Made by a program: the position numbers and the translations under genes
In this document: piece after piece, positions 3,823-56,456 of the stretch
Layout: each line of letters opens with the position of its first letter
How positions within the stretch are numbered: position 1 is the stretch's first letter
NCBI GenBank assembly: GCA_004347685.1
Contig: SLTJ01000033.1
Location: forward strand, 77,527 to 135,772
Direction: 5' to 3'
Origin: Clostridia bacterium
GTDB taxonomy: Bacteria; Bacillota; DSM-521; Neomoorellales; SLTJ01
DNA length: 58,246 nucleotides
Notes under the pieces: generated by a model
What the model was told of the DNA's origin: nothing
The model's database searches: none
What the model saw: the letters and a program-made list of their open reading frames with translations, nothing else

Positions 3823-4051
3823 TTTGCTCTCTCCTTAGTTCGTTCTTCCCCATCTTATGCTCCCCGGGGTTTGTCCGATTAAGACCAAGTTTGGCAATGC
3901 TGGAGACTTCCTGACCGGCCGGGGACCTTATCTTCGCCTGAGCTTAACTTGGCCATTTTCCGCCCGGGTTATTCCGGCCCTGGCGGAGCATAAAAGTGGG
4001 TCTGGAGACGTAAAATACAGGCGTATTCAACCACAAAGGCAGGAGAGAGCG

Positions 4052-5344
4052 ATGGCCATGAAGGTACTTATGCTGTCCTGGGAATATCCTCCGGCCAGTG
4101 TGGGGGGGCTGGCGCGGCACGTGGAAGAACTGGCCGCAGCTTTGACGGACATGGCTGAGGTTCATGTCTTGACCCGGGGGGGTCCTAGTGCCCCGGGCCC
4201 AGAAGACAGTGTCCTGGTACACCGGGTAGAGCCTTACTCCCTTAACCCCGCTGATTTCCTCGGATGGGTTTTTCAGTTAAACATGGCTTTGCTGGAACAG
4301 GGGATCCGGCTCTATCAGCATTACGGGCCCTTTGACATCCTTCACGCTCACGACTGGTTAGTGGCCTTTGCGGCCCGGGCGCTGAAACATGCCTATCTTG
4401 TGCCCCTGGTGGCTACCATTCACGCCACCGAAGCCGGCCGTAACCAGGGACTGCATAACGACACCCAGCGGTACATTTCGAGCGTGGAATGGTGGCTTGC
4501 TTATGAGGCCTGGCGGGTCATTGTCTGCAGCCAGCACATGCGCCAAGAAGTCCGGCGGTTTTTCCAAGTGCCGGACGACAAGCTGGAAGTTGTGCCCAAT
4601 GGCGTAAGGCCGGAAAGATTTCAGGTACGGCCCGACCTTAACCTGCGGTTACAATATGCTGCTCCCGGGGAGAAAATCATCTTTTTTGTCGGCCGCCTGG
4701 TGCCGGAAAAAGGCGTGCAGGTTCTGATCCAGGCCATGCCGGCCGTTTTGCGGAACTGTCCGGAAGCTAAACTGATCGTGGCCGGCCAGGGGCCCATGGA
4801 AGGGGAACTCAAGTACCTGGCCCAGAACCTCGGCCTGGGGCCTAAAGTCTATTTTACCGGGTACCTGGACGATGCGCGGCGCAACGCTCTTTACGCCGTG
4901 GCCGACGTGGCGGTCTTCCCCAGCCTCTACGAGCCTTTTGGTATTGTGGCCCTGGAAGCCATGGCGGCAGGTACGCCGGTGGTGGTCGCCGATACCGGCG
5001 GGTTAGGCGAGGTAGTAACGCATGGAGAAAGCGGGTTAAAGGCCTTTGCCGGCAGCGCTGCTTCCTTGGCGGAAAACATTTTTCGTGTTCTGCGGGAGCA
5101 GGGCCTGGCTGACTACTTGCGGCAGGAGGCGGCCCGCTGCATTGCCTCCAGGTTTAACTGGCCGAGAATTGCCCAGCACACATATAAGGTTTACCAGCGA
5201 GTGGTCGGCGAGGCCGGACAGGTAGACTGGGGCCGGAGGGAAGAAGATGAAGCCGGGAAGCGCCCGCACCAGCCGTATAGCCTGCTGGAATACCGGCGAC
5301 AGAAACAGGAAAAAGGCGCGGGCACGGCGGCAACAAGGGGGTAA
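4052..5344 (+). CDS. GT4-family glycosyltransferase, glycogen/starch synthase-like
   Basis: A 430-aa GT-B fold enzyme. The N terminus has the glycine-rich acceptor loop (SWEYPPASVGGLARH), a HAHDWLVA segment follows, and the C-terminal lobe has the retaining GT4 signature E-x7-E in YEPFGIVALEAMAAG followed by DTGGLGEVV. It probably makes or extends an alpha-glucan. The frame is open from 3857, but the ATG at 4052 is preferred because AGGAGAG lies just upstream and the protein then begins with the family-typical MAMKVLMLSWE. It is divergent from galT and followed 6 bp later by the nucleotidyltransferase gene, likely one operon. Confidence 0.9.
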   Translation: MAMKVLMLSWEYPPASVGGLARHVEELAAALTDMAEVHVLTRGGPSAPGPEDSVLVHRVEPYSLNPADFLGWVFQLNMALLEQGIRLYQHYGPFDILHAHDWLVAFAARALKHAYLVPLVATIHATEAGRNQGLHNDTQRYISSVEWWLAYEAWRVIVCSQHMRQEVRRFFQVPDDKLEVVPNGVRPERFQVRPDLNLRLQYAAPGEKIIFFVGRLVPEKGVQVLIQAMPAVLRNCPEAKLIVAGQGPMEGELKYLAQNLGLGPKVYFTGYLDDARRNALYAVADVAVFPSLYEPFGIVALEAMAAGTPVVVADTGGLGEVVTHGESGLKAFAGSAASLAENIFRVLREQGLADYLRQEAARCIASRFNWPRIAQHTYKVYQRVVGEAGQVDWGRREEDEAGKRPHQPYSLLEYRRQKQEKGAGTAATRG

Positions 5345-7762: not shown

Positions 7763-7768
7763 CCGGTC

Positions 7769-8455
7769 TTAACCGGCCGGAGGTTTGTTAATCGTTACCA
7801 GCCCTAGCTCCTGGAGCACCTCAACGCCCGAGGGCAGAGGGTCCTCCCAGAGCCACTCGATTTTCAGCCATAACCCGGAAATGACCTGGGAACGGTAGGT
7901 CCCTGCCGCCCCGGCCATGGCCAGGCGGTAACGCCCCTTTTCGTCCAGATGGTAGAACTCGGCCTGTTGGCGGTCCGGGTCAATCAGCCAGTATTCCTGC
8001 ACCCCGGCCGTTTCGTATTCCACAAATTTTTCCCCCCGGTCCCGGCTGATGCTTTCCGGTGAAGTTATCTCCACTACCAGGTCCGGAGCCCCGGGAAAAT
8101 AGAGACGCTGCATTTCCGCCAGCCTGTCTTGCTTGATAAAGACGACATCCGGTTCTCGCCCCCGGTCAGGTACGGGCAGGCGGACAAGGAAGGGGGCAGT
8201 TACCACCATTCCCAGTTTTCGTAACAACGCATAGTCCCTAAGCACATCAACCAGGAAGGCGGCTATCTTAGCGTGCCTGGTGGCTGCCGGACTCATATAT
8301 ATTACTTCCCCCTCCACCCATTCCGCCCAGGTATCTTCATCGCCCATTGCTAAGAACTCTGCAAAACTAACCTTGCGAGCCGGAGCCGGCTGGGAATCAG
8401 GCCTGTATTGGGCGGCGGTTTCCCTGATTTGCTTGTCTTCAGGTAAGATGGACAC
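7769..8455 (-). CDS. Uma2-family (DUF820) putative endonuclease
   Basis: Has the PD-(D/E)XK-like core of Uma2 proteins: PDLVVEITSPES, then EYETAGVQEYWLIDP. The family is common and multicopy in cyanobacteria and thermophilic Firmicutes; its biological role is unknown. The frame starts at GTG 8464, but a GTG at 8455 is better placed behind GAGGTG (complement of 8463-8468), giving 228 aa. It is convergent with the nucleotidyltransferase gene, with only 6 bp between the stops, and shows no functional link to the glycogen genes. Confidence 0.85.
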   Translation of the reverse strand: MSILPEDKQIRETAAQYRPDSQPAPARKVSFAEFLAMGDEDTWAEWVEGEVIYMSPAATRHAKIAAFLVDVLRDYALLRKLGMVVTAPFLVRLPVPDRGREPDVVFIKQDRLAEMQRLYFPGAPDLVVEITSPESISRDRGEKFVEYETAGVQEYWLIDPDRQQAEFYHLDEKGRYRLAMAGAAGTYRSQVISGLWLKIEWLWEDPLPSGVEVLQELGLVTINKPPAG

Positions 8456-8596
8456 CGGAATCACCTCGGCTTTCTGGCTCCACGCTTACATTCCCTTAAA
8501 CCAGCTTAAACCAGGCCCGGCCCTTTGTCAACAGCCAGATTTGCTAGCGGCTGCCAACCTCTAGCCGGCGACCCGGCCTCCATCGTGGTCCTGGTT

Positions 8597-10183
8597 TTAG
8601 CTCTGAAACACCCGGTAATCAAGGTGGGGGAAGATATTGTCCTCGCCCTCAATTTCCGCCAACCAGCCGGCATCCACCGGGCCCCGGCCTAGTTCCTCCC
8701 ACAGGCGGGTGAAACGCCCCAGGTGGGTGATTGTCCTCCTCTTGGCGTAATCCACCATGGTAGCAGTCTTCATGATAAAAGCCCAGTCGCTGCTTTGAGC
8801 CAGGAGCAGCTCTCGGCCCGCCTGGTTGAGGGCGCGGCGGTAAAGGTCGTCGGGCGGAGAGGAAAACCTATTGGCCATTTCGATCATGCGGGCGGCCGCA
8901 TGGTGCAGGTGGCGGTAAATCCAGTCGTTGCTGCCGTCCAGCCAAACATCGTTATAACCGCTATTTCCCCAACTGGACATGCACGGGGTGGCTACCTGAT
9001 TATTAGGGAACATTTCCAAGTAATCGCCTGGCGTGACCAGGCTGAAGGTTTTCTGGTCATAGGCGGTCTTACGGACGACAAACTCCAGCCAGCGTGGACC
9101 CTCGAACCACCAGTGGCCAAATAGCTCGGCATCATAAGGGGCCAGTACCACCGGCGGGCGGTCCATCTGGCTGGCCAGCCACTGGATCTGGTGCTGACGG
9201 TTGAAAATGAAGTTGCCGGCATGAATGGCGGCTTTCTCAGCCGCCCATTCCGGGATGTATGGCTGCTTGAGGTCGGTTTTCCCAGTGATACGGTAGTACT
9301 TGATGCCAGTGTCCACACGGATGCCGTCCGGGTGAATATAGGGCTTAATGTATTCCTCGTCCAGGTCGTAGCCGATGTCCCGGTAGAACTCGCGGTAGTC
9401 GAAATCGCCCGGATAACCCTCTTGGGCACTCCAAACTTGCTTGGAGGATTCCAGATCCCGGCCGAAGGCAGCCACGCCGCTGGGGCAGAGGACCGGGGCG
9501 AAAACGCCGTAACGCGGCCGTGGAGCGGCAAACAGAAGGCCATGGGTATCCAGGAGGAAATACTGCAGTCCGGCTTCACGCAAAATGTAGTCGTCACCCG
9601 GATTATAGCCGCATTCCGGTAACCAGATACCCCTGGGGGCGCGGTGGAATTGCTGCTGGTAGGAATCAACGCCGGTTCTTACCTGGGCTTTCACCACTTC
9701 CCGTTGTAGGCCGATCAAAGGTAGGTACCCGTGGGTGGCCGCGCAGGTGATAATCTCCAGGTAGCCGGCATCCTGCAGTTCTTTCCAGGCAGAGATAAGG
9801 TTATCGTGGTAACGCTCGTGGAACAGGGTGTAAGCCTCGTCAAAAAGGCGCTGGTACATCAGGGCCAGGCGGTGGAACTCAGGCTGGGTGCGGGTGCGTA
9901 CCACCTCCCTGGCCGCCAGTTCCCGCAGTTTATTCAGGTGCTTGAGATAACGTTGCTGCAGGAGCGTGTCCAGGAGCATGGCCAGCAGCGGCGGAGTCAG
10001 AGAAAGGGTTATCCGGTAAGGGACGCCGTCGGCGGCCAGCCGCTGGAAAACTTGAAGTAAGGGGATGTAGGTTTCGGTAACGGCCTCAAAAAGCCAGCGT
10101 TCTTCCAGGTATTTTTCACTTTCGGGATGCCGCACGTAGGGTAAGTGCGCGTGTAATATGAGCGCCAGGTAACCTTGAGCCAT
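8597..10183 (-). CDS. GH57 1,4-alpha-glucan branching enzyme-like (DUF1957)
   Basis: GH57 fold with N-terminal HAHLPYVRHPE, likely nucleophile Glu190 in WLPECGYNPG and likely acid/base Asp351 in APYDAELFGHWWFEG. These match in spacing the two catalytic residues of archaeal GH57 branching enzymes. A C-terminal DUF1957-type helical domain follows. It is 528 aa, normal for the group. It would introduce alpha-1,6 branches into glycogen made by the neighbouring synthases. It overlaps the upstream DUF4912 gene by one base, so the two are translationally linked. Confidence 0.92.
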   Translation of the reverse strand: MAQGYLALILHAHLPYVRHPESEKYLEERWLFEAVTETYIPLLQVFQRLAADGVPYRITLSLTPPLLAMLLDTLLQQRYLKHLNKLRELAAREVVRTRTQPEFHRLALMYQRLFDEAYTLFHERYHDNLISAWKELQDAGYLEIITCAATHGYLPLIGLQREVVKAQVRTGVDSYQQQFHRAPRGIWLPECGYNPGDDYILREAGLQYFLLDTHGLLFAAPRPRYGVFAPVLCPSGVAAFGRDLESSKQVWSAQEGYPGDFDYREFYRDIGYDLDEEYIKPYIHPDGIRVDTGIKYYRITGKTDLKQPYIPEWAAEKAAIHAGNFIFNRQHQIQWLASQMDRPPVVLAPYDAELFGHWWFEGPRWLEFVVRKTAYDQKTFSLVTPGDYLEMFPNNQVATPCMSSWGNSGYNDVWLDGSNDWIYRHLHHAAARMIEMANRFSSPPDDLYRRALNQAGRELLLAQSSDWAFIMKTATMVDYAKRRTITHLGRFTRLWEELGRGPVDAGWLAEIEGEDNIFPHLDYRVFQS

Positions 10184-16036: not shown

Positions 16037-16318
16037 ATGCTGGTAGGCGTCTGCACCATCAGGCTGCACTTGCCCGAGGCCGGATCCCTCAAGGACAAGC
16101 GGCGTGTCATCAAGAGCATGCTCGACCGGATCCACAGCCGCTTTAACGTTTCCATCGCCGAGGTTGAAGACCAGGACGTTTGGCAGGTAGCCACCCTGGG
16201 GGTGGCCGTGGTGAGCAACGGGGAGGCCCACATCCATGAAGTCCTGGCGGCTGTGGTCAATGCGGTGGACGGCTACCGCCAGGTAGAAATGCTGGAGTAC
16301 CAGGTACAAATAGTGTAG
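16037..16318 (+). CDS. DUF503 family protein
   Basis: A 93-aa protein starting MLVGVCTIRLHLPEAGSLK, then DKRRVIKSMLDRI and NVSIAEVEDQDVWQ, characteristic of DUF503, a small ferredoxin-like-fold family often found near rbfA in other bacteria. Its function is unknown. GGAGG at 16022-16026 precedes the ATG with suitable spacing. Confidence 0.9.
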   Translation: MLVGVCTIRLHLPEAGSLKDKRRVIKSMLDRIHSRFNVSIAEVEDQDVWQVATLGVAVVSNGEAHIHEVLAAVVNAVDGYRQVEMLEYQVQIV

Positions 16319-16371
16319 AGGGAGGGATATAATTATCCTGGGTTGTCAGATAGAATGTCGTTTTTAGCCAC

Positions 16372-16400
16372 TTGACGTCCAGCAGCAGATAGATTAGTAT
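16372..16400 (+). promoter_or_regulatory. Predicted sigma-A promoter of the LuxR-type regulator
   Basis: TTGACG at 16372-16377 and TAGTAT at 16395-16400 are separated by 17 bp, about 45 bp upstream of the GTG start at 16445. It reads as a moderately good promoter. Confidence 0.6.
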
Positions 16401-16444
16401 TAATAGTATAAACTGGCGACCATAAGAAAGGGGTTAGAGAGACG

Positions 16445-17896
16445 GTGAAAGAGCTGTCCTCACCTTTACCCACAGCCCTTCCCGATGAGTACCCTACCTT
16501 GCTGATGACTTGTTACCTGAAAACAGCCTTGAAAGTGGGCAGCCGGTTACGCCAGGAGATCGCCAATTTTCTCGAGCGCTCGGTTTGCCAGTGTGGGTTT
16601 GGCGAAGCCATCCTGCTGCTGATGGTGAAAAAGCGGACCGTGATGCGCTGGTGGGTACAGGTTGATCCCAGAAACCAAAACATACATATTCAGGTGGGCG
16701 AGCCGGGGCGAGATGAGCTGTATCAGTACGTACTGCAGGGTTCGGCAGCAAAAGTGGTGTTGCCGCTTATCTCACACCTGGCCGGCCTTGACGGAAAAAC
16801 TGATGTCTGCATTCTGAATTGTGAAGACCAGCGGAAAGCAGAAAAGATGCTGGATAAGGGAATCCCCATTGCCGGCCATATCAGCACCATCCTTAAGGAT
16901 TCGATCATGGAGCGCGGCCAGGATAACAAGCGGCAAAATTGGGAGAAGCTCTCCCTATGGGTGGAAACAGCCCATATGATCAGTTCTGCCCTTAACGTGC
17001 GCCAGATGCTGCACGTAGTTATTCAGTTGGTGGCCGATACCTTTGCCGCCCGTTGCTGCATCTTTATGGTGAACCCCGAGAAGAACACCATTGTCCCTAT
17101 GATCGGTGCCGGGAGTTATGACCTGGAATCACGGCAGAAGTTCCGGTCTCTGGCCGGCCGTGACCTGTTCCCCGCCTTCTGGCAGGCGTACAAAGATAGA
17201 AGGCCGGTGATAGTTACGCCAGAATCGGTGCTGGAATTATACCCGGCCGACGTAGCCGGATTTTACAATTTGAAGGCCGCCGTTGTCGCCCCCATTTTGC
17301 TCAGCAATAAGGTATCCGGTTTCCTACAGGTAGACCGGCAAACGGGGAATTTCCGGGAGGAAGATGCGGAGGTGATTTTCGCCATCGCCAAGGAGATTGC
17401 CGTAGCAGCCGAAAATGCCCGACTGCGGGATGAACTAAATCATACAGAAGCTACTCTGCAGGTACTCCTGAGCAAGGTGGCGACCATGCCTAAGAACACC
17501 TTTTCCGGGGGTGAAGCCCTCCAACTTCTGCAGGCGGCGCTAAACGATATCGAAGCCGTGCAAGCTGAAGAAGAAATCGGGTCCGGTGACCGGAAGGATT
17601 TAAAGGGGATTGACAGCAAAATACGGGCCGCGCTGCAAATCCTCGGGACTGCAAGGGCGGTTGAGGATGTACCGGGGGGCAACGCCGTGCCTGAAGGCCT
17701 GCTGACCCCGAGAGAAATGAAGGTCCTGGCCCTGGTGGCGAGAGGCCTCACTAATAAGGAAGTATCGCTGGAACTGAGCATCTCGAACGATACCGTGAAA
17801 TCCCACCTCCATAGTGTTTACCAAAAACTCGGCGTCAGCAGCCGGTCCCAGGCCATTATGAGGGCCATCCAGATGGGCATAGCCGGCTCAGCTTGA
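16445..17896 (+). CDS. GAF-domain LuxR-family transcriptional regulator
   Basis: A 483-aa regulator. Residues about 1-160 form an N-terminal domain I do not recognise; about 175-325 look like a GAF sensor domain (LSLWVETAHMISSALNVRQ onward); about 330-400 is a linker; the last 65 residues are a LuxR/FixJ helix-turn-helix (LTPREMKVLALVARGLTNKE, then SISNDTVKSHLHSVYQKLGV). The start is GTG 16445. There is no receiver or kinase domain, so it should sense a small ligand or redox state directly. It stands immediately upstream of the mutase operon (gap about 270 bp) and is a candidate regulator of it; that link is inference from position. Confidence 0.87.
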   Translation: MKELSSPLPTALPDEYPTLLMTCYLKTALKVGSRLRQEIANFLERSVCQCGFGEAILLLMVKKRTVMRWWVQVDPRNQNIHIQVGEPGRDELYQYVLQGSAAKVVLPLISHLAGLDGKTDVCILNCEDQRKAEKMLDKGIPIAGHISTILKDSIMERGQDNKRQNWEKLSLWVETAHMISSALNVRQMLHVVIQLVADTFAARCCIFMVNPEKNTIVPMIGAGSYDLESRQKFRSLAGRDLFPAFWQAYKDRRPVIVTPESVLELYPADVAGFYNLKAAVVAPILLSNKVSGFLQVDRQTGNFREEDAEVIFAIAKEIAVAAENARLRDELNHTEATLQVLLSKVATMPKNTFSGGEALQLLQAALNDIEAVQAEEEIGSGDRKDLKGIDSKIRAALQILGTARAVEDVPGGNAVPEGLLTPREMKVLALVARGLTNKEVSLELSISNDTVKSHLHSVYQKLGVSSRSQAIMRAIQMGIAGSA

Positions 17897-18164: not shown

Positions 18165-19808
18165 ATGATTAAGGAGAAATGCGAAACCGAATCCGGTATT
18201 GAGGTTAAGGAAGTCTACCGGCCTGAAGATGTTGCGGATCTGGACTACGGACAGGATCTTGGCGACCCCGGGAAGTACCCCTTTACCCGGGGCATGTATG
18301 AGCATATGTACCGTGGTCGCACTTGGCAGGAATACGTGCTGGTAGGGTTTGGCACCACGAGAGACACCAATGAGAGGCTAAGGTATTTGAGGGAGCAACT
18401 GGGCCAGCCGATGTTGAACGTGATCCTAGATATGCCTTCTAACTACGGCCTGGATTCGGATCACCCCATGGCCCAGAAGGAAGCAGGACAGGTGGGTATT
18501 CCTTTGTCTTCCCTGGAAGACATGGAGCAGCTTTGCGAAGGCATCCCCATTGAGGAAGTGAACCTTTCCTTCCAGACCTGTCCTGGAGACGGGCATCTGC
18601 TCATGCTGGCCCAATATATAGCTGTGGCCCAAAAGCGGGGGATTGATCTCACCCGCTTGCGCGGTTCTATGGGTGCCCCACCTACCCACCGCTTTTTCGG
18701 TTACCCTTCGCCGCAACCCCTTGATTTGTCATACCGGGTTTATATTGACTCTCTGGAATGGTGTGCCCGAAACAAGCTGCGCCTTTTCTATATGAATGAT
18801 GCTGGTCACGTTTTTCGCGAAAACAGCATCACCCCGGTGCAGGAAATGACCCTGGTCTTACAAACGGCGCGGGAGATTTCCGGTGCCCTTATCGCCAGGG
18901 GCTTGAGTATTGATGATTTTGCTTCCCGGTTCATGTCGGTCCTGGGGATAGGGATGGACTTTTTCGAGGAAGTTTGCAAGGTAAGGGCCGGTAGGCGGAT
19001 CTGGGCTAGGATTGCTAAGGAACTAGGAGCCCAAAACCCCAGGACCTGTGCCTTTAACTTTGTTGCCCATAGCTGTGGTTCTACCATGACCTACCAGCAA
19101 CCCCTAAACAATATTACCCGTGGCACCATTCATGCCTTGGCCTCGGCCTTTGGTGGCTGCCAGGGCATCAGTATCGCCACCTTTGACGAACCTCTGTGCG
19201 TACCAACGAAGCTGGCTTCCCGGGTGGCGCTGGACACCCTGCGCATCATCGAGCACGAGACGGGAATCATGGATGTCATTGACCCGCTGGCTGGCTCCTA
19301 CTATGTCGAGTGGTTGACCGACGAGATGGAGAAGAAAATTGTGGCCATGATGGATGAAATCGAGGAAATGGGTGGTATTGCCAGGGCGGCCGAAAAGGGC
19401 TGGGTACAGCAAATGCTGGACAAGGAGCAGTGGCGGCGCAAAGAGGCTATTGATAAAGGCGAGAAGATAGTGGTAGGGGTGAATAAGTTCAGGGTACCAC
19501 CGGATGAAGAAGAAAAAATCGAGCTACACCAGAACCCGCCCGAGTCCACCGAGAGACAGGTGGAGAACGTGAGAAGGCTAAGGCAGAGGCGTGATAATGG
19601 GGAAGTACGGCAGGCTCTCGACCGGCTGTGGCAGGACACCCGCGAGGGCAAAAATGTGATGCCGGCGGTAATTGAGGCCGTCAAAGCCTACGCCACTACC
19701 GGGGAAATCTGGGGGGTAATGCGCGAGGCCAGCGGTTACAGCTATGATCCCTTTAACATGATAGAATCACCGTTCAAGTTTGGATATGAGGGCGTCGCGG
19801 CCAGATAA
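18165..19808 (+). CDS. B12-dependent acyl-CoA mutase, catalytic subunit of unknown substrate
   Basis: Methylmalonyl-CoA-mutase-type TIM barrel of 547 aa without a B12 domain; the B12 domain is the next gene. Family landmarks: YPFTRGMYEHMYRGRTW, GLDSDHP, VLGIGMDFFEEV, DPLAGSYYVE, IVVGVNKFRV. By alignment from memory to Propionibacterium methylmalonyl-CoA mutase, the substrate-side residues differ: Tyr89 corresponds to Leu59, Arg87 to Tyr57, and Arg207 (which grips the methylmalonyl carboxylate) to Tyr180; the catalytic His244 region SGYHMQEAGA reads AGHVFRENS (His215, shifted by one). Isobutyryl-CoA mutase has Phe/Gln and 2-hydroxyisobutyryl-CoA mutase Ile/Asp at the key sites, so none fits. 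The start is ATG 18165 behind AAGGGGGG; the frame opens at 18111. No MeaB chaperone or epimerase gene is nearby. Confidence 0.85.
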   Translation: MIKEKCETESGIEVKEVYRPEDVADLDYGQDLGDPGKYPFTRGMYEHMYRGRTWQEYVLVGFGTTRDTNERLRYLREQLGQPMLNVILDMPSNYGLDSDHPMAQKEAGQVGIPLSSLEDMEQLCEGIPIEEVNLSFQTCPGDGHLLMLAQYIAVAQKRGIDLTRLRGSMGAPPTHRFFGYPSPQPLDLSYRVYIDSLEWCARNKLRLFYMNDAGHVFRENSITPVQEMTLVLQTAREISGALIARGLSIDDFASRFMSVLGIGMDFFEEVCKVRAGRRIWARIAKELGAQNPRTCAFNFVAHSCGSTMTYQQPLNNITRGTIHALASAFGGCQGISIATFDEPLCVPTKLASRVALDTLRIIEHETGIMDVIDPLAGSYYVEWLTDEMEKKIVAMMDEIEEMGGIARAAEKGWVQQMLDKEQWRRKEAIDKGEKIVVGVNKFRVPPDEEEKIELHQNPPESTERQVENVRRLRQRRDNGEVRQALDRLWQDTREGKNVMPAVIEAVKAYATTGEIWGVMREASGYSYDPFNMIESPFKFGYEGVAAR

Positions 19809-19842
19809 GACTCGGCAAGATGACGAGGGGAGGTAGCACTGG

Positions 19843-20253
19843 TTGGAGAAGGACAAAAGAATACGCGTTCTCATGGCCAAGATAGGCTTGGACGGCCACG
19901 ATGTGGGCATGAAGGTGTTAACTCGGGGCCTGCGCGATGCAGGGATGGAGGTGGTATACCTGGGGCTGCACCAAACACCGGAAATGGTGGCAAATGCAGC
20001 CATGCAAGAAGACGTGGATGTTATCGGTATCAGTTCCCACCAGCCGAATCACAGCTTGCTGATCGGAGATCTCATGCGGTTGCTCAAGGAAAAAGGACTG
20101 GATAACATTACGGTCATAGCCGGGGGTACGATTTGGGAGCCCCATTTGAGCCAGTTAAAAGAGATGGGAGTGGCCGAGGTATTTCTTCCCGGCACGCCTA
20201 TCGAGTCGATAGCGGAGTATATTCGTTCCCACGTGCGCAGCCGGCCGAACTGA
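19843..20253 (+). CDS. B12-binding small subunit of acyl-CoA mutase
   Basis: A 136-aa Rossmann-like cobalamin domain. It has the base-off motif DxHxxG as LDGHDVG, whose His is the lower cobalt ligand, then ISSHQPNH (usually SSLAAGH) and AGGTIWEPH (usually GG near the tail pocket). It must pair with the catalytic subunit 34 bp upstream. The start is TTG 19843 behind GGGGAGG. Heteromeric two-gene mutases of this kind are known for isobutyryl-CoA and 2-hydroxyisobutyryl-CoA mutases. Confidence 0.93.
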   Translation: MEKDKRIRVLMAKIGLDGHDVGMKVLTRGLRDAGMEVVYLGLHQTPEMVANAAMQEDVDVIGISSHQPNHSLLIGDLMRLLKEKGLDNITVIAGGTIWEPHLSQLKEMGVAEVFLPGTPIESIAEYIRSHVRSRPN

Positions 20254-20329: not shown

Positions 20330-21274
20330 TTGTTCGCAGACAATCCTTTATGTAAAGTGCTTGGCATCCAATATCCGATCATCCAGGGAGCGCTGGCTTG
20401 GATTTCCGACGGCCCGTTCGCGGCAGCGGTTTCCAACTCGGGCGCCCTCGGGGTTATCGGTCCGGGGATGCGGCCGGCAAGTGAAATCATCGAGGAAATC
20501 GAGAAAGCCAGGGCCCTAACCGACAAGCCCTTTGGCGTAAACGTGGTATTGTGGCCGGAACAGATGGAAGCCCACCTGAAAGCCCTCTTTGATGCTAAAG
20601 TGGAAATCATTACTACGGCCATTTCCGATCCAGGCAATATAATCGAGATGGCCCATGAGCATGGCGCGCTCATGCTGTGCCTGGTGGGGAGCGTCCGCCA
20701 TGCCCAGCGGTTGGTGGCCGAGGGGGCCGATGTAGTTATCGCTTGCAGCAATGAAGCCGGGGGGCATACCGGGGAGATCGGAGGGATGGTACTGGTGCCG
20801 GCCATTGCCGACGCGGTTAAGGTGCCGGTGGTGGCTTCCGGGGGCATTGCCGATGCCCGGGGCTTTGCCGCGGCCCTGGCCCTGGGAGCCTCCGGAGTAC
20901 AGGTGGGTACCAGGTTTGTGGCCAGCAAGGAGTGCCCGTGCCATGACAATATCAAACAGGCCATCCTGCATGCCACCGAAGAAGACACGCTAATGACAGA
21001 CCACCTTTCCGGTTCGCCCATGCGCGGTCTGCGTAACAGGCTATTGGAAGAATGGGCACGTAAAGAAGCAACAGCCACCAAGCAGGAGAGGAGGCAGCAT
21101 TTCAAGGGCAGGTACAAGGCGGCGGTATATGAGGGCGACACGGAGATGGGCTCGATCCCGGCCGGACAGGTGGTGGGAAGGATCCGGGAAATAAAGAGCG
21201 TTAACGAAATCATTACCGATTTGGTGTCGGGTCTGGAACCGGTCCTGGATCGGCTCCAAAGGGAGCTTTCGTGA
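20330..21274 (+). CDS. Nitronate monooxygenase / FabK-like FMN protein
   Basis: A 314-aa FMN-dependent TIM barrel of the 2-nitropropane dioxygenase family: PIIQGALAWISDGPFAAAVS at the N terminus, EAGGHTGEIGG in the middle, and the phosphate-binding SGGIADARG plus GASGVQVGTRF. Family members act as nitronate monooxygenases, as enoyl-ACP reductase FabK, or on unsaturated acyl-CoA. In this anaerobic acyl-CoA context an ene-reductase or isomerase role seems more likely than oxygen chemistry; that is inference. The start is TTG 20330 with AGGAGG at 20316-20321. Confidence 0.82.
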   Translation: MFADNPLCKVLGIQYPIIQGALAWISDGPFAAAVSNSGALGVIGPGMRPASEIIEEIEKARALTDKPFGVNVVLWPEQMEAHLKALFDAKVEIITTAISDPGNIIEMAHEHGALMLCLVGSVRHAQRLVAEGADVVIACSNEAGGHTGEIGGMVLVPAIADAVKVPVVASGGIADARGFAAALALGASGVQVGTRFVASKECPCHDNIKQAILHATEEDTLMTDHLSGSPMRGLRNRLLEEWARKEATATKQERRQHFKGRYKAAVYEGDTEMGSIPAGQVVGRIREIKSVNEIITDLVSGLEPVLDRLQRELS

Positions 21275-21294
21275 ACAGACGGAGGAGGAAAAGG

Positions 21295-22965
21295 ATGAAG
21301 TTTAATAGTATTATCACGAGCGATGCTATCGCCAAGTATGTGAATGAAGGTTATTGGCGTAATATGACACTGGCCGATTACCTCTGGCGGGCCGAGGAGG
21401 TTTGTCCAGATAAGGTAGCCATCATCGAGGCCGACACCGGGAAGAAGATTACTTACGGAGAGCTGGCAAGTGCGGTCAGGCGAGTAGCGCTGACCCTGTT
21501 GGCGCAAGGGGTCAAGCCCGGAGATGTTTTTTCTACCCAGTTGCCAAATTCAATAAACTTTTGCATCATGGATTATGCTCTATCGGCGATTGGTGTAGTT
21601 CATAATCCTCTGCATATGCCATACCGGGGAGCCGATGCAAAGTTCATTCTGGGCTGGTCCGAATCCGTGGGCGTAACTGTCACCTCGGAGTTTAAAGGTT
21701 TTAGTTATCCTGACATGATTAAGGAGCTGCAACCGGATCTGCCAAACTTAACTCGCATTTGGGTGGCCGGAGGGGCAGACGGAGGATGTACGAGCCTGGA
21801 TGAGGTAGTGACCTCACCCGTAGAAGCCGGGTACCCGTCCGGCTATTTGCAGCAATTTCGACCGGATCCAAATAATATCGCCTGGCTGGCTTATACTTCT
21901 GGCACTGAGGCACAACCCAAAGGCGTAATGCGGACCCATAATATGATGGATTATGGTGCCCGAGCCGTCAACGAGGCCATGGGTTTTCCCTCCCTAGCCC
22001 ATTCCACCGTAGTTTCTGATATTGTCGTGTTCCCTATGTCGCCGGCAGCTAACATCTTTGCCCTCTGCGGTGTCTACATTAGCCTGCAAAACCGGGGAAC
22101 TTTGATAGTTTCCCAGGAGTTCAAGCCGACCCTGGCCCTAGAAAGCATAGAGAAGTATGGCGTTACCCACCTGATGGGTGTGCCAACCCAGATCATCGCC
22201 ATGCTCCGCGAACCCGATTTTGACAAATACCGGCTCAATTCCGTGCGAGTCTATATGTACGCGGGCTCGGTCTGCCCGGCCCAGGTAGTTGAAGAGACAC
22301 GCCGGAGGATCGGTTGTAGCGTGGTGACCTGTTACGCCTTGACAGAATGCGTTATCTGTACCCGTACCCTTCCCACCGACCCTGTGGAAGTAACTGCAGA
22401 AACCGCTGGTAAACCTGCTCCGGGGATGGAGGTTAAGATAGTTGATCCCCACGGTAATCGTCTCCCGCCCGGACAACCTGGAGAGATTATGGCCAAGGGC
22501 GTCTGTGTCATGGCCGGCTACCTTAAGCGCCCGGACTTGACGGCTAAGGCCTTCGATGCCGAGGGCTTCCTTCACACCGGTGACGAGGGAATTATTGACG
22601 AGAGCGGCAACTTGCGGGTGACGGGGCGGATCAAGGACATAATCATCCGGGGCGGGCAGAACATCAGCGCCAAGGAAGTGGAGGGATACCTCCTTTCCCA
22701 CCCCAAGGTGGTCAACGCGGCGGTCGTTGCCATGCCCGATCCTAAATACGGCGAGAAAGCATGTGCCTTTGTCGTGCCTCGGGAAGGTGAAATCATTACC
22801 CTGGAGGAGATAACCCAGCATATGCTGGCCCAGGGTGTGGCCAAATATAAGCTGCCGGAAAGGGTCGAAATCGTTTCTTCCATTCCCATGACGCCGGCCG
22901 GCAAGGTGCAGAAATATATTCTCCGCGAGCAGATAGCGCGGAAGCTCCAAGAGGAGGCCAGCTAA
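21295..22965 (+). CDS. AMP-forming acyl-CoA ligase 1
   Basis: ANL-superfamily ligase, 556 aa: activates a carboxylic acid with ATP to acyl-AMP and then acyl-CoA. P-loop YTSGTEAQPKGVM, adenine motif YALTE, FLHTGDEG, hinge VTGRIKDIIIRGGQNIS and catalytic Lys in PAGKVQKY are all intact. The N terminus (YVNEGYWRNMTLADYLWRAE) resembles cyclohexanecarboxylate-type and CaiC-like ligases. The start is ATG 21295 with GGAGGAGG 6 bases upstream; the frame also allows GTG 21271, which overlaps the preceding stop. It is part of the run of genes from 18165 to 25953. Confidence 0.9.
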   Translation: MKFNSIITSDAIAKYVNEGYWRNMTLADYLWRAEEVCPDKVAIIEADTGKKITYGELASAVRRVALTLLAQGVKPGDVFSTQLPNSINFCIMDYALSAIGVVHNPLHMPYRGADAKFILGWSESVGVTVTSEFKGFSYPDMIKELQPDLPNLTRIWVAGGADGGCTSLDEVVTSPVEAGYPSGYLQQFRPDPNNIAWLAYTSGTEAQPKGVMRTHNMMDYGARAVNEAMGFPSLAHSTVVSDIVVFPMSPAANIFALCGVYISLQNRGTLIVSQEFKPTLALESIEKYGVTHLMGVPTQIIAMLREPDFDKYRLNSVRVYMYAGSVCPAQVVEETRRRIGCSVVTCYALTECVICTRTLPTDPVEVTAETAGKPAPGMEVKIVDPHGNRLPPGQPGEIMAKGVCVMAGYLKRPDLTAKAFDAEGFLHTGDEGIIDESGNLRVTGRIKDIIIRGGQNISAKEVEGYLLSHPKVVNAAVVAMPDPKYGEKACAFVVPREGEIITLEEITQHMLAQGVAKYKLPERVEIVSSIPMTPAGKVQKYILREQIARKLQEEAS

Positions 22966-23079
22966 GGCAAAGAATGGCACCGGCCAGGAATTTCCAGGGA
23001 TAAGCCATACGGTCAAGTGTTGTTCGGTGTATCTTTCGGTGTATCTTATGGCTACGCGGGTGAGGAATGGGGGTACAGC

Positions 23080-24237
23080 ATGGAATCTAGCAATGACACT
23101 CTAAAAGTGCTGATGGCATCGCTGCAGCGATTGCTGAAGGAAAAGGTCGGTCCGCAGGCTGGCGAGATAGACCGGACTGATACCTTCCCCCGGGATATCT
23201 GGCGTGCCTTTGGCGAAATAGGCGTGATGGGGGTTGCGGTTCCCGAAGAATATGGTGGTCTTGGCCTAGGTTTTGACAAGCTTTGTCTGGTGACACGCGA
23301 AATCGCGCGGGTATCTGGCTCATGCGCCGCCATGGCCTTTTCCCCGCTTTTTGGCATCTACCTGCTTCTGCACGGTGGTGCTTCGGAGGCACAAAGGCGG
23401 GCCTGGCTGCCCAAACTAGCCTCTGGAGAAGAAATGTGGTCTTTCTGCCTCACCGAAGCCCACGCCGGCTCGGACGCCATGGCTATGAAAACCACCACCA
23501 CCGCGAGGAGTGGCGCCTTCGAAGTCAACGGGGTAAAGCAATTTATTAGTTTTGCCGGTGAAGCGACTAAATATATCGTGGTATCACGATTACCTCAAGT
23601 GGAGGCCGCAGGGAAACCCGTCGGCATCGTTCTTATTGATGCCAATGCTCCAGGCTTGCGCATCGGCAAGAGGGATGAGAAAATGGGAAATCGCGGCATC
23701 CCGTCGGCGGAAGTAATCATGGAAGGGGTCAGGATACCGCGGGAGCGGGTTTTTGGACTGGACGGCGGGGCGCGGGAGCTCTTTGGGATAATAGTACGGC
23801 GCGAGAGGATCGCCCTGGCCAGTTGGGCCGTCGGTGTTGCCATGGGCGCCTTTGAGTACGCCCTGAACCACACCAAAATCCGGCAGCAATTCGGCCGGCC
23901 AATCTTTGAGTTCCAGGCGGTGCAGATGATCCTGGCGGAAATGTTCATCGGCATCAGCTCGGCCATCGGCCTGATAGACAAAGCGTGCGCCTGCCTGGGT
24001 AGGGACGAGGAGTACGGCGAAATATATGGGTCGGCTGCCAAAGCTCTGGCATGTGAAGTGGTGGTGGAGGTAACGGGTAAAGCCATGGAATTATTAGGCG
24101 GATATGGATATATGAAGGAATATCCGCTGGAAAGAATGGTGCGCGATGCCCGCGGGTTTCCGGTGATGGCCGGTACCGGCGAGATCCAGAAATGGAACGT
24201 GGCCAGGAACCTGCGACACGACAGATACCGGTTTTAG
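23080..24237 (+). CDS. Acyl-CoA dehydrogenase 1
   Basis: FAD-dependent acyl-CoA dehydrogenase, 385 aa from ATG 23080 (the frame opens at 23017). FAD and substrate motifs: [30 protein letters not shown]. The usual catalytic Glu of the YEGT loop is absent (MAGTGEIQ). Instead a Glu lies in RRERIALAS, the helix-G position used by isovaleryl-CoA and long-chain dehydrogenases. This suggests a branched, bulky or long substrate. Electrons would go to an electron-transfer flavoprotein, not encoded here. Confidence 0.9.
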   Translation: MESSNDTLKVLMASLQRLLKEKVGPQAGEIDRTDTFPRDIWRAFGEIGVMGVAVPEEYGGLGLGFDKLCLVTREIARVSGSCAAMAFSPLFGIYLLLHGGASEAQRRAWLPKLASGEEMWSFCLTEAHAGSDAMAMKTTTTARSGAFEVNGVKQFISFAGEATKYIVVSRLPQVEAAGKPVGIVLIDANAPGLRIGKRDEKMGNRGIPSAEVIMEGVRIPRERVFGLDGGARELFGIIVRRERIALASWAVGVAMGAFEYALNHTKIRQQFGRPIFEFQAVQMILAEMFIGISSAIGLIDKACACLGRDEEYGEIYGSAAKALACEVVVEVTGKAMELLGGYGYMKEYPLERMVRDARGFPVMAGTGEIQKWNVARNLRHDRYRF

Positions 24238-24282
24238 CCTGTAATCACGGTTTGCCTATTCATGAGGGGGAGGAAGACCTAC

Positions 24283-25953
24283 GTGGCAAGGGCAATTACC
24301 AAGACCATGTGGGACGAGGTCACGGCACGGGAGTATTACCGTAACGGCTACTGGGATGTCTACATCCTGAACGACTACATGGACTACTGGGCCAGTATTT
24401 TCCCTGACAAGGAGTTCGTGGTCGGAACCACGGGTAGGTATACCCTCAAGGAAACCAAGGAAATCGCCGACCGTCTGGCCCTGAAGCTTTTGGACCTGGG
24501 CGTGGAAAAAGGCGATATTATTTCGGTGCAATTGCCGAGCTGGGCCGAGGTAGTCTTCGTTGAGCTGGCGGCATACAAGATCGGCGCTGTGTATAACGTG
24601 ATCAATCCAGCCTTTCGGGCCCAGGATGTTGGCTACATATTGAGGGAAAGCCAGAGTAAGATTCTCGTTGTACCGGGGGAGTTCAGGGGATTTGACTATG
24701 CCCAGATGGTGGAGGAATTGCGGCCCCAGTTGCCCGGGTTGGAGCACGTAATCACGGTGGGAGAAGGGACTGCACCGGGAACGATCTTGTTTAAGGACCT
24801 CCTGCTGGAGCCGCCGCGGAAGGCATACACCGAAGAACACGTGCGGAGCTTGAAGCCGCATGCCGACGATGTCTGCCTGCTGATCTTTACCTCCGGCAGC
24901 ACCGGTTTTCCCAAGGGAGTGCTGCATACCGGCAATACGGTGATCAGCATGGCCAGGGCCTGCGCGGAGGCCTGCGGCTTGAAGCAATTGGGACTTAACG
25001 AGACAGTCCTGGCCCTGGCCCCGGTTAGTCACCTTTTCGGCCTGGGCGGACTGGTGAACGCGGCCATCCTCCGAGGGGCCAGGATAGTGCTACTCGATGT
25101 TTTTAGTCCTCAGGCGGCCCTGGAGCTCATCGGAAAAGAAAAGGTTACGAGGGCGGCCGGCGTCCCGGCTCAGTTCCTGGTGATCCTGGACGAACTGGCG
25201 CAACACCGGGGTAAATACGATGTTTCTTCCCTCAAGTCCTTCTGGGTGGCGGCGGCCCCTTGCCCGCCCGAAGCCATCCATAAGTTCGTCGAGCTGACGG
25301 GAGCCCAGGTATCGTGCGTCTACGGGCTAAGCGAAGGGTCTCCCAGCGCCGAAGGCCTCCCCGGCGATCCGCTGGACCTGGTAGCCACTACCGGCGGCAT
25401 GCCCCGCTTCGGGCAACAGATTAAGATCGTGGACGCAGAGGGCAACGAACTGCCCAGGGGACAGGCCGGGGAAATACTGACAAAGGGGCCAGTTAATTCC
25501 GTCGGTTATTACAACAATCCCGAAGTCACGGCCAAGAGCTATACCCCTGACGGCTGGTTAAAGACCGGTGACAAGGGCTGGCTGGGGGAAGATGGCTTTG
25601 TCCGTATAGTGGGCCGGATTAAGGACACCATTAGGCGCGGCAGCGAGGACATTGACCCGGTGGAGATCGAAAACCTCCTGGCCATGCATCCAAAAATCGC
25701 CGACATCGCCGTGGTGGCCATGCCTGACCGCCGTCTGGGGCAGCGCCCTTGCGCCTATGTGGTGTCCCGGGGGGACGAGAGAATCACCCTGGAAGAAATG
25801 CAGGCCTTCCTCAGGGACAGGATTGCCACCTTTAAAATGCCGGAGCGGTTGGAATTTGTAGGTGAAATACCGCGCACTTCTTCCGGGAAAATACAGCGGT
25901 TCAAACTGGCTGAGGATATAGCCAACAAGGTAGCGAGTGAGTCACCTGCATAA
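24283..25953 (+). CDS. AMP-forming acyl-CoA ligase 2
   Basis: ANL-superfamily ligase, 556 aa. P-loop FTSGSTGFPKGVL, YGLSEG, WLKTGDKG, VGRIKDTIRRGSEDIDP and terminal SSGKIQRF with the catalytic Lys. The hinge-following sequence GSEDIDP differs from the common GGxNIxP. The overall pattern resembles aryl-acid AMP ligases such as 2,3-dihydroxybenzoate-AMP ligase and cyclohexanecarboxylate ligases. GTG 24283 is the preferred start, with GGGGGAGGA 9 bases upstream; ATG 24262 lies inside that site's leader. Confidence 0.88.
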   Translation: MARAITKTMWDEVTAREYYRNGYWDVYILNDYMDYWASIFPDKEFVVGTTGRYTLKETKEIADRLALKLLDLGVEKGDIISVQLPSWAEVVFVELAAYKIGAVYNVINPAFRAQDVGYILRESQSKILVVPGEFRGFDYAQMVEELRPQLPGLEHVITVGEGTAPGTILFKDLLLEPPRKAYTEEHVRSLKPHADDVCLLIFTSGSTGFPKGVLHTGNTVISMARACAEACGLKQLGLNETVLALAPVSHLFGLGGLVNAAILRGARIVLLDVFSPQAALELIGKEKVTRAAGVPAQFLVILDELAQHRGKYDVSSLKSFWVAAAPCPPEAIHKFVELTGAQVSCVYGLSEGSPSAEGLPGDPLDLVATTGGMPRFGQQIKIVDAEGNELPRGQAGEILTKGPVNSVGYYNNPEVTAKSYTPDGWLKTGDKGWLGEDGFVRIVGRIKDTIRRGSEDIDPVEIENLLAMHPKIADIAVVAMPDRRLGQRPCAYVVSRGDERITLEEMQAFLRDRIATFKMPERLEFVGEIPRTSSGKIQRFKLAEDIANKVASESPA

Positions 25954-27754: not shown

Positions 27755-28283
27755 TCTGGCCACAATCAGGATCCACAGATATGATCCTACGGTTGACGCG
27801 GAACCCTGGTACCAGGTGATTGAAGGCGTGCCTTACCAGGGCCTGAGCGTCCTGGATGTCTTGCGGCACGTTTTTTATCACATGGATCCCAGCCTCAGCT
27901 TCTGGCAGATGTGCGGTAAGGGGAGCTGTGGCGCGTGCGCCATGGTGGTAAATGGCAGGCCGGTTCTGGCCTGTTCTCAGCCGGCCGGGCGGGAAATGGT
28001 CATTGAACCCCATTTCAAGTTCCATGTAGTCAAAGATCTCCTGGTGGATTTTAGCCGCGCGGCCACTGGCTTCTGTTCGCCTGGAGGTGTGGTGCAGGTG
28101 CTGATTGATCCGGCAAGGTGTATACACTGCCAGGACTGCGTTAGGTTATGCCCTGTTGGTGTATATGGTGTCGTAAAGAAACGCGTGGCAGTCCTGGACC
28201 AGGGGAGTTGTCTAGGAACGACCTGTATGCATTGTGCCCAATCGTGTTGGAAAAGCGCCATTACTATCATCAGCAGTGCCTAG
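27735..28283 (+). CDS. SdhB/FrdB-like iron-sulfur subunit with short ferredoxin tail
   Basis: N-terminal part is the plant-type [2Fe-2S] domain of Sdh[21 protein letters not shown] followed by C. The C-terminal part is short: [13 protein letters not shown] and [13 protein letters not shown], two clusters of four Cys, so a two-[4Fe-4S] ferredoxin-like module instead of the usual [4Fe-4S]/[3Fe-4S] helical domain. It is about 175-180 aa against 230-250 normally. The start is uncertain: GTG 27735 lies right against its possible Shine-Dalgarno, whereas CTG 27756 has GGAGG (27746-27750) 5 bases upstream and would give the family-typical beginning [11 protein letters not shown]. Its flavoprotein partner is broken, so it may be orphaned. 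Confidence 0.75.
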
Positions 28284-28433
28284 AACCGGTTGCTCAATAA
28301 CCAGCAGCAAGTGCGTAAATGTATTTACCACATGCCCGCGCCTGGCTGGGCTAGCCCTATTTTCATCCTGTTCGGGAATAGATCATCTCGGCGGCTTGAG
28401 GTATAATGCATTTCACGGAGGGTGTGACTGGTC

Positions 28434-28447
28434 GGGGGGGGGGGGGG
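28434..28447. repeat. Homopolymer tract of 14 G
   Basis: Fourteen consecutive G on the plus strand, 27 bases after a TATAAT at 28402-28407 (with no clear -35) and 83 bases before the start of acyl-CoA dehydrogenase 2. It lies in the presumed leader. Length could vary by slipped-strand replication, or could be an assembly error. Confidence 0.9.
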
Positions 28448-28530
28448 TAGGCCGTAATACGCGACAAGAGTGGCTTTTCGTCTATTCTCGAAGCCTGACT
28501 TGGCCAGCAAAGAAAACGGGGGGATACCGG

Positions 28531-29664
28531 TTGCAGCTTACGGAGGAGCAGTTAATGTTTCAGCAGAGTGTACGGCGTCTGGCCCAGGAAAAGCTGGCGC
28601 CGCTGGCGGCCCAGGTGGATGAAAACGGGGTTTATGCCCGCGAATCGGTCGCCATTATGGCCGAGAACGGGCTTTTGGGTATTATGATCCCTGAGGAATA
28701 CGGTGGCGGTGGGGGTACGGCCATTGACCTCTGCCTGGCAGTGGAAGAAGTAGCCCGGGTGTGCGGGTCGTCCTCCCTGAATATGTCCGTGCAGGCAGGT
28801 GCCTACCTTCCTATAACCTATTTCGGCACCCGGGAGCAGAAGGCCAGCTACCTTCCTTCCCTGGCTTCAGGAGAACATATTGGTTCCCTCTGTATCACCG
28901 AGCCTGATGCCGGGTCCGATGTGGCTTCGCTCCGTACCCGGGCCGTTCTGCAGGATCGCACTTACACTGTCAACGGTAGCAAATGCTTTATCACCAACGG
29001 CGGCATAGCCGGCACCTATGTCGTATTTGTACGTACCGGCACCACCGGCAGCAAAAAGGATATCAGCGCCCTGATCGTGGAACCAACCTTTGCCGGATTC
29101 GCGGTGGGCAAGCTCGAGAAGAAAATGGGCATGCGCGGGTCCCAGACGGCGGAGATAATTTTTGAAAACTGCCTGGTGCCGGCGGAGAATCTGTTGGGCC
29201 ACGAGGGTGAAGGTTTCGGCATTGCCGAAGCCTGCCTGGGGGTGAATCGGGTGCTGATCGGGGCTCAGGCCGTAGGCTTAGCTCAGGGAGCCCTAGACTA
29301 TGCCGCCAATTACGCCAACCAGCGTTACCAGTTTGGCCAGCCCATTAGCCGCTTCCAGGGCCTGCGGTTTATGGTCGCCGACATGTGCATCAGAATAGAA
29401 GCAGCCCGCAGCCTCACCTACAATGCGGCGGTGAAGGTGACGAAGGGTGAGAGAGACGCGCTGGCTTTTGCCGCCATGGCCAAATGTTTCACTTCCGACG
29501 TAGCCATGGAGGTGACCACCAACGCGGTCCAGGTCCTGGGCGGGTACGGTTACATGAAGGATTACCCGGTGGAGCGGATGATGCGGGACGCCAAGCTGCT
29601 GCAAATATACGAAGGGACGAACCAGATCCAGCGGACTATTGTAGCCAAATACGTTTTGGGATAA
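28531..29664 (+). CDS. Acyl-CoA dehydrogenase 2 (short/medium-chain type)
   Basis: A 377-aa flavoenzyme. [42 protein letters not shown] and the catalytic loop [13 protein letters not shown] with its Glu are all present, as in butyryl-CoA and glutaryl-type dehydrogenases. TTG 28531 is chosen as start: a G-rich site lies just upstream and the protein begins [13 protein letters not shown], as in the family. The same frame stays open back to 28234 across the G14 tract. CoA-transferase follows 90 bp downstream. Confidence 0.92.
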
Positions 29665-29754
29665 GGCTGTGCTTCTATTTGCTGCTAAGTGAGCGGCGAT
29701 TCTCATGGCAAGAAATACTGTATCATAATACATTTGTGGCGCCAGGAGGTTGTA

Positions 29755-30981
29755 ATGAAATCCTTAAGAGGAATCAGCGTTTTGGACCTATCCCCGCTTA
29801 TTCCCGGCCCATACGCCAGCTTGCTTTTGGCGTCATGGGGAGCCGAAGTGATAAAGGTAGAGGACCCACGCTTCGGTGATCCCATCCGGAGCTACCCGCC
29901 CGCCTACGGCGGCTTTGGTGTAGCCTTTAGCACCCTAAACAAAGGCAAGAGGAGCCTGGCCGTGGATTTGAAGACGTCTGCGGGCAGGGAGATTTTTTAC
30001 CGCCTGGCTAAAAAAGCCGATGTAATCATTGAGGGATTCTCTCCCGGCGTTGCCGGCCGGCTTAAGGTTGACTACCCAACCGTCAAATCCATCAACCCGC
30101 GGGTAGTATACTGTTCCATTTCCTCCTACGGCCAGGAAGGCCCCTACCGGGATTTACCTGGCCATGACCTGAACTTTGTCGGCCTGGGGGGCATGTTGGC
30201 TTTTGCCCCGGCGGGAGAGGGCACACAGCCGGTATTCCCCATTTCCCAGTTGGCGGACATTAGCTCTGGCCTGTACGCGGCCGTAAGCATCCTGGCCGCC
30301 CTTCTGGGCCGGGAGCGGGGCGGTGCGGGTACGTACATAGATGTCTCCATGCACGAGACGGTGGCTTCGTGGTGGGCCATCACCCAGGTAATGAGCCGGT
30401 ACACCCATGAGCCCAACTGGGGCCACATGATGTCCACAGGACAGTTGGCCTCATATAACGTATATCTGGCCGGGGACGGGCAGTACCTCTCCCTGGGAAT
30501 TCTCGAGGATAAGTTCTGGGAAAGGCTTTGCGATGCCATGGAGTTTGTAGAAGGGAAAAACGTTGAGTTTCGTGACCCGGAGCTGCAGCCCCGCCTCCGG
30601 GCCAGGCTGCAGGAGATATTTATGACCCGTCCCCGGGATGAATGGTTTATCCTCCTGCGCCAGGCCCAGGTGCCGGTAGCCCCGGTCAACGACATGGAGC
30701 GGGCCTTGGCCGACCCGCAACTTGTTTCCCGCGAGTTTTTCACCACCATACCTCTACCTGGGGGGGAGGAGCTGCCAGCGCTGCAACTGCCGGGAAGGCT
30801 GGCTACCTGGCAGCCCGACCCCCCTTCACCGCCGGCCCTGGGGGAACATACTGCCTATATCTTGCAATCGCTTGGTTACGGTGCAGAAGAGATAGCCGAC
30901 CTACAGGAGAAGGGGATAGTGGCCTCCTCGGACCAACCAATTCATGAGCTGCTGGCGGCACCCCAAGCAGGTATACATTGA
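29755..30981 (+). CDS. Class III CoA-transferase (CaiB/BaiF family)
   Basis: A 408-aa family III CoA-transferase: GISVLDLSPLIPGPYASLLL and GAEVIKVEDP at the N terminus, KGKRSLAVDLKT, and DLPGHDLNFVGLGGML carrying the predicted catalytic Asp. It would move CoA between an acyl-CoA and a free acid (formyl-CoA, succinyl-CoA, benzylsuccinate and bile-acid types are known), so it offers an ATP-free route to activate the substrate of the nearby dehydrogenases. The start is ATG 29755 with AGGAGG at 29744-29749. Confidence 0.92.
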   Translation: MKSLRGISVLDLSPLIPGPYASLLLASWGAEVIKVEDPRFGDPIRSYPPAYGGFGVAFSTLNKGKRSLAVDLKTSAGREIFYRLAKKADVIIEGFSPGVAGRLKVDYPTVKSINPRVVYCSISSYGQEGPYRDLPGHDLNFVGLGGMLAFAPAGEGTQPVFPISQLADISSGLYAAVSILAALLGRERGGAGTYIDVSMHETVASWWAITQVMSRYTHEPNWGHMMSTGQLASYNVYLAGDGQYLSLGILEDKFWERLCDAMEFVEGKNVEFRDPELQPRLRARLQEIFMTRPRDEWFILLRQAQVPVAPVNDMERALADPQLVSREFFTTIPLPGGEELPALQLPGRLATWQPDPPSPPALGEHTAYILQSLGYGAEEIADLQEKGIVASSDQPIHELLAAPQAGIH

Positions 30982-45657: not shown

Positions 45658-45669
45658 GGAGGTAGAGAA

Positions 45670-48315: not shown

Positions 48316-48358
48316 GTTTCCGGTCTGAATGGACAGGTCAGGAATTGGGGGGTAGAAA

Positions 48359-49234: not shown

Positions 49235-49249
49235 TTAGGAGGTTTAGTT

Positions 49250-50299: not shown

Positions 50300-50495
50300 G
50301 GGTATTGATCCTGGTGGGGAACGTGGGTCTTGTGCGGGCGGAGCGATTTGGCCAGGATGTAAGTGGCCAGGCGAGAAAGGGGGTGAGAGCCTTACGGATA
50401 AGCAAGTTTAACCGGGTCCGGACGTCTTTTCAGTCAGGGTATTAGATTGTGAGGCCGAAGGGTGAAAGTGAGTTACACAGAAGGAGGCACTTAAG

Positions 50496-55647: not shown

Positions 55648-55653
55648 ATAGAG

Positions 55654-56433: not shown

Positions 56434-56456
56434 CCAGCCTGCGGGGGTAGGGAGAA

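Follow-up and report, generated by a model that had tools for sequence, protein, structure and literature searches.

The window, a stretch of 58,246 nucleotides from a Clostridia bacterium, encodes a two-subunit adenosylcobalamin-dependent acyl-CoA mutase in which all six signature residues of the substrate site are altered, with the conserved core and the B12 motifs kept. It is this combination that has no match among the 136 relatives aligned; the Leu at one of the six sites also occurs in some of them. Specificity in mutases of this kind is usually deduced from two residues, and to our knowledge the radical mutase family has few established substrates. Because six signature residues have changed and the core and B12 motifs are kept, the enzyme offers a ready test of the real requirements of the radical rearrangement. 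It is also a lead to a new breakdown route for branched or cyclic acids, and we tentatively favour a bulky substrate of that sort.

The large catalytic subunit (547 aa, plus strand, 18165–19808) starts with the ATG at 18165, just 3' of the purine-rich AAAGGGGGG, and its stop codon ends at 19808. The small cobalamin-binding subunit (136 aa, plus strand, 19843–20253) follows after 34 bases with a TTG start, and both frames are intact. The large subunit scores 499.5 bits against PF01642 (cut-off 22.1) and 444 bits against TIGR00641 (curated cut-off 304); TIGR00640, for the small-subunit domain of a mutase pair, gives 141 bits against a curated cut-off of 57. The B12-binding DxHxxG motif is present in the small subunit as Asp17, His19 and Gly22, together with Lys13, which we take to correspond to Lys604 of methylmalonyl-CoA mutase (MCM). 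By the large-subunit profile and the small-domain motif the pair belongs to the MCM superfamily. Among solved structures, the top match of the large subunit is 2-hydroxyisobutyryl-CoA mutase (HCM, PDB 4r3u; E 2.4e-107, 37% identity). The predicted model (pLDDT 87) has the barrel fold and aligns with HCM over 520 residues (Z 47.4, rmsd 1.8, 37% identity), compared with Z of at most 46.5 for MCM chains and 34.9 for the MCM beta chain, so that its best structural matches are catalytic chains. Judged from sequence and predicted structure, the family and cofactor class of the pair are secure. The B12-motif Lys is replaced by Met in 32 of 132 small-subunit rows, including some (L014, L026) from the TxQQH clade described below. 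Elsewhere, the genome encodes the chaperone MeaB (contig C11) and two further mutases, an ordinary MCM-type one whose signature residues are all those of MCM (L001) and another divergent one (L002).

The site residues were read from an alignment with 136 distinct related large subunits, which came from a related-locus search, genome searches and plasmids chosen by name. Duplicates and query copies were taken out, and no row was excluded for shortness. The signature is given in the order Arg87-Tyr89-Gln197-Arg207-Tyr243-His244, in MCM numbering. In this order the large subunit reads YLGYHV: Tyr57 and Leu59 at the first two sites (codons Tyr57, Val58 and Leu59, 18333–18341), Gly170 at the Gln197 site (18672–18674), Tyr180 at the Arg207 site (18702–18704) and His215-Val216 at the Tyr243-His244 sites (18807–18812, register plus or minus one), all on the plus strand. 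Every one of the six differs from MCM, and the combination is found in none of the 136 other rows. These read RYQRYH (43), RTxQQH (39, the TxQQH clade), RYQRAH (31), RFQQYH (6), FLQCYN (6), RLQ[NS]YN (4), RLQNQH (3), RIQQYH (2, HCM), RGQGYN (1) and RIMWYE (1). The RLQNQH rows are pivalyl-CoA mutase (PCM), the activity of the Xanthobacter plasmid gene Xaut_5043, of the pair Xaut_5043/5044. Arg87 is present in 130 of the 136 rows, with Phe in the remaining 6, and Leu occupies site 89 in 13, including Xaut_5043 and two other groups. Gly197, Tyr207, His243 and Val244 are each found in 0 of 136.

The mapping was checked with five profile HMMs. Tyr57 falls on Arg87 and Leu59 on Tyr89 with a posterior of at least 0.95 in all five. 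Counting from the left, Tyr180 falls in the Arg207 column; the MCM, ICM/HCM and all-row profiles place a one-residue gap just past it, and Arg is absent from site 207 in both registers. The preliminary description of this DNA had already assigned Tyr57, Leu59 and Tyr180 to these three sites, had noted the loss of the carboxylate-binding Arg207 and had implied that the Asp117 of HCM is lacking. All of this is borne out, with Ile87 at the last position. It overlooked the larger changes, the loss of Gln197 and of the Tyr243-His244 pair, and its term "unprecedented" holds for the six-site combination but not for Leu at site 89. The segment AGHVFRENS, said to carry the catalytic His, is present. 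Four of the five profiles align its His215 with Tyr243 and its Val216 with the catalytic His244, at a posterior of at least 0.95. Only the TxQQH profile aligns His215 with the His of its clade, at low posterior. In the predicted model of this enzyme the helix starts at Gly214, and in that of a TxQQH enzyme it starts at the first residue of Gln-His; these boundaries lean weakly towards a His-on-His register. The safe statement is thus that one His is kept, in one of two positions, where relatives carry Tyr-His, Gln-His, Ala-His, Tyr-Asn or Tyr-Glu.

A careful tree of 46 of the 137 rows, picked to span the groups, places the large subunit as a deep, lone outside sister of the 39-row TxQQH clade (support 100/98), with PCM, HCM, ICM-like, MCM and the other groups on the opposite side. 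A quick tree of 96 rows recovers the same grouping (support 99), with a long branch to the large subunit. Forcing it together with HCM (p 1.9e-5) or PCM (p 3.4e-4) is rejected by the AU test, and membership in either is rejected on the strength of tree and AU test together. Robust grouping with a characterised mutase clade, the result that the preliminary description had named as fatal to its claim, appears neither in the tree nor in the AU test. The large subunit thus shares ancestry with the TxQQH clade and carries YLGYHV in place of RTxQQH. The C-terminal YDPFxxI motif is common to it and the TxQQH rows. Its small subunit agrees with the sister placement: YLG and ISSH..N are common to it and the TxQQH small subunits inspected. 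TxQQH mutases come from Pseudomonadota, Myxococcota, Syntrophus and Desulfosporosinus and occur in many groundwater and sediment genomes; we know of no substrate for any of them. In the literature searched, we found no characterised member of the lineage studied here and no paper on the TxQQH clade or on quaternary-carbon routes. Other sources drawn on were PMC11599936, PMC7176365, PMC6759758 and PMC10481361.

The lineage appears to be rare. A broad scan of one genome per species (84,980 species), which needs short shared peptides and may miss the window's nearest genomes, confirmed 113 of 118 candidate stretches, and among the best 80 of these none was more than 43% identical to the large subunit. 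No closer relative was present in the 61 genomes of the relatives set (own genome included) or in 398 genomes of the phylum, where the best other match was 42%. Within the class (22 genomes), matches at E ≤ 1e-125 were confined to its own genome (0 of 21 others), and plasmid searches retrieved the reference mutases and no close relative.

Upstream of the mutase genes, on the same strand, is a regulator that combines GAF with LuxR-type DNA-binding domains (16445–17896). Downstream, also on the plus strand, lie an FMN protein from the NMO (nitronate monooxygenase)/FabK family, below the FabK cut-off (20330–21274), an AMP-forming acyl-CoA ligase (ligase 1, 21271–22965), an acyl-CoA dehydrogenase (dehydrogenase 1, 23017–24237) and a second AMP-forming ligase (ligase 2, 24262–25953), separated from the small subunit onward by 76, -4, 51 and 24 bases. 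The ligases and a dehydrogenase with a branched-chain-type Glu had been noticed before, and both observations stand: dehydrogenase 1 has Ala at the usual Glu376 and its catalytic Glu at the isovaleryl-type position. Among the 398 genomes, its only match at E ≤ 1e-120 was in its own genome. Past ligase 2 come a broken stretch, an iron-sulphur protein of the fumarate-reductase type, acyl-CoA dehydrogenase 2 (plus strand, 28234–29664, with domains from about residue 100 of the frame), a type III (CaiB) CoA transferase (plus strand, 29689–30981) and two branched-chain-type ABC operons, which were identified from translations, with one binding protein confirmed. An ABC transporter of the branched-chain type (LivF, G, H, M and binding protein), a kind that is widespread, and a long-chain-type CoA ligase occupy 44863–51758 on the plus strand.

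Between 26420 and 27754 a minus-strand enoyl-CoA hydratase remnant, recognised by eye, reads into a DDE transposase, and the plus strand carries the C-terminus of a fumarate-reductase flavoprotein; this is a rearranged site within a catabolic island. At 53165–58144, up to the contig end, are 2-hydroxyacyl-CoA dehydratase/double-cubane-type subunits and three consecutive activator ATPases. Benzoyl-CoA reductase was rejected for the 53–58 kb genes, all of which score below the curated cut-offs for that enzyme. At the left edge (41–1318) a translation with several CxxCH motifs, seen by eye, is probably a multihaem cytochrome.

Neighbours of related mutases were counted by direct BLAST; longest-open-frame calls gave many false antisense genes in the high-GC loci. 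Only loci longer than 12 kb were counted, which left 32 of 39 for the TxQQH clade and 19 of 30 for RYQRAH. The TxQQH loci contain MeaB (19), a PaaK-like ligase (17), a TetR regulator (17), LivG (10) and an FAA1-type ligase (6). The RYQRAH loci contain MeaB in 14 and no ligase, TetR regulator or transporter, so that a CoA ligase accompanies the mutase in 17/32 TxQQH loci versus 0/19 RYQRAH loci. The three PCM loci carry TetR, MeaB, an AMP ligase and branched-chain transporters. An ABC transporter with an FAA1-type ligase is common to TxQQH loci, PCM loci and the window's island. An NMO-type gene is present in 0 of the 32 TxQQH loci and a relative of dehydrogenase 1 in 1, at the chosen score limit; the gene order around the mutase is not shared with them.

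Several of the other groups have features of their own. In the RYQRAH clade (L038–L077) the Tyr243 site is Ala, and 18 of the 19 long loci also encode a CaiB CoA transferase. By analogy with IaaGH and its transferase IaaL (PMC8360864), these enzymes may act as phenylsuccinyl/benzylmalonyl-CoA mutases. The FLQCYN clade (L078–L083) has Phe at Arg87, Leu at Tyr89 and Cys at Arg207, and has no known member among the reference sequences used. Leu/Asn(Ser)/Asn-type mutases occur in L069 (Desulfotruncus arcticus), L066, L109 and L048, and that of L069 adjoins 2-hydroxyacyl-CoA dehydratase-like genes. An acetone-induced B12 mutase is known from D. arcticus (PMC8084838), identity with the L069 gene not being implied. 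In the window's own genome, contig C37 (L141) carries a second divergent B12 mutase (7009–9059, signature RGQGYN). Nitrogenase-component-1-like and NifH/CfbC-like proteins (3372–4835 and 16286–17122), both under the NCBIfam cut-offs, lie on the same contig, as does another NifH-like frame interrupted by the contig end. This cluster also includes ADP-forming acyl-CoA synthetases, a thiolase, a dehydrogenase, a hydratase, MmgE/PrpD and an aldehyde ferredoxin oxidoreductase. PF00148 has 11 matches over six contigs of the genome.

What, then, might the enzyme rearrange? We tentatively prefer a reading in which the pair rearranges the carbon skeleton of a branched or cyclic acyl-CoA that is bulky and not dicarboxylic, and passes its product to the nearby isovaleryl-type dehydrogenase. 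We infer this substrate from the residues and the neighbouring genes: the loss of Arg207 and the new small or hydrophobic residues, beside ligases and an isovaleryl-type dehydrogenase, suggest a roomy, non-dicarboxylic pocket, which, as its residues are argued, should accept a bulky acyl-CoA. The acid would be imported and then activated by a neighbouring ligase. Cobalamin would be bound base-off with His19 as the lower ligand, and the CoA ester would lie along the barrel, in a pocket where the Arg207 carboxylate clamp, Gln197 and the Tyr-His pair are gone or altered and Leu, Gly and Tyr stand instead. The 5'-deoxyadenosyl radical would abstract hydrogen from a carbon adjoining the alpha position, and a 1,2-shift of the CoA-carbonyl group would turn an alpha-branched, possibly quaternary, acyl-CoA into a beta-branched one for oxidation by dehydrogenase 1. 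Several points count against this: the searches gave no close relative that could show the unusual residues to be conserved, the catalytic His has two possible registers, some 25 kb separate the ABC transporter from the mutase, and the island's CaiB transferase and fumarate-reductase-type remnant also suit a dicarboxylic route. A further proposal, which we consider doubtful, is that the pair and its sister clade form a separate class of acyl-CoA mutase for bulky cyclic, aromatic or quaternary-carbon substrates, with the usual radical 1,2-shift and the thioester placed without Gln197 and His244. If so, residues thought essential for substrate placement would be dispensable.

Or, has a known reaction, the isomerisation of pivalyl/isovaleryl-CoA or of 2-hydroxyisobutyryl/3-hydroxybutyryl-CoA, been arrived at independently of the known clades? 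This enzyme has Leu at site 89 in common with the PCM rows and with the LN group, PCM loci resemble the island in their type of ABC transporter and in the FAA1-type ligase, and an isovaleryl-type dehydrogenase is close by. However, the AU test separates the enzyme from PCM and HCM, and it lacks the Arg87, Gln197 and Gln-His of the former and the Arg87, Gln197, Tyr-His and Asp117 of the latter, so we think this unlikely. A substituted succinyl- or malonyl-CoA, as used by the phenylsuccinyl/benzylmalonyl-CoA mutase of auxin breakdown or by alkylsuccinyl-CoA mutase, would fit the CaiB transferase, the iron-sulphur protein and the flavoprotein remnant of the island. The IaaGH mutase with its transferase IaaL (PMC8360864) is a known pattern of this kind. 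Yet Arg207 and Gln197 are both lost, and the subset of window genes that was scanned contained nothing recognisable as a hydantoinase or a glycyl-radical gene, which makes such a substrate quite improbable. Equally improbable is a decayed or catalytically dead enzyme in a transposon-broken island, as the six altered residues and the hydratase remnant, transposase and flavoprotein fragment 6–8 kb downstream might suggest, because 55 of 59 strongly conserved columns are kept (88–100% in other rows; functional relatives, the HCM rows among them, reach a similar level), both frames and the B12 motif are intact and the large subunit looks constrained.

The bulky, non-dicarboxylic reading can be set against the known enzymes. 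MCM has the same fold and catalytic-chain architecture and differs at all six signature residues, with Tyr89 and Arg207 where the window's enzyme has Leu59 and Tyr180. The same two residues set it apart from isobutyryl-CoA mutase (ICM), whose pair at these sites is Phe/Gln. HCM (HcmAB), like the pair described here, has separate large and small subunits and the same fold; it combines Arg87, Ile89, Asp117, Gln197, Gln207 and Tyr-His, whereas the corresponding residues here are Tyr, Leu, Ile, Gly, Tyr and His-Val, so that the diagnostic Ile89 with Asp117 is replaced by Leu59 and Ile87. PCM resembles it in Leu at site 89, the lack of Arg207, the separate subunits and the ABC transporter and CoA ligase near the mutase, but keeps Arg87, Gln197 and Gln-His, none of which the window's enzyme retains. 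The TxQQH clade is 38–43% identical to it and shares the GxTMTYQQPLNN motif as well as YDPFxxI and the ISSH..N loop of the small subunit; Arg87, Thr89, Gln207 and Gln-His, present in 39 of 39 TxQQH rows, are Tyr, Leu, Tyr and His-Val in the window's enzyme.
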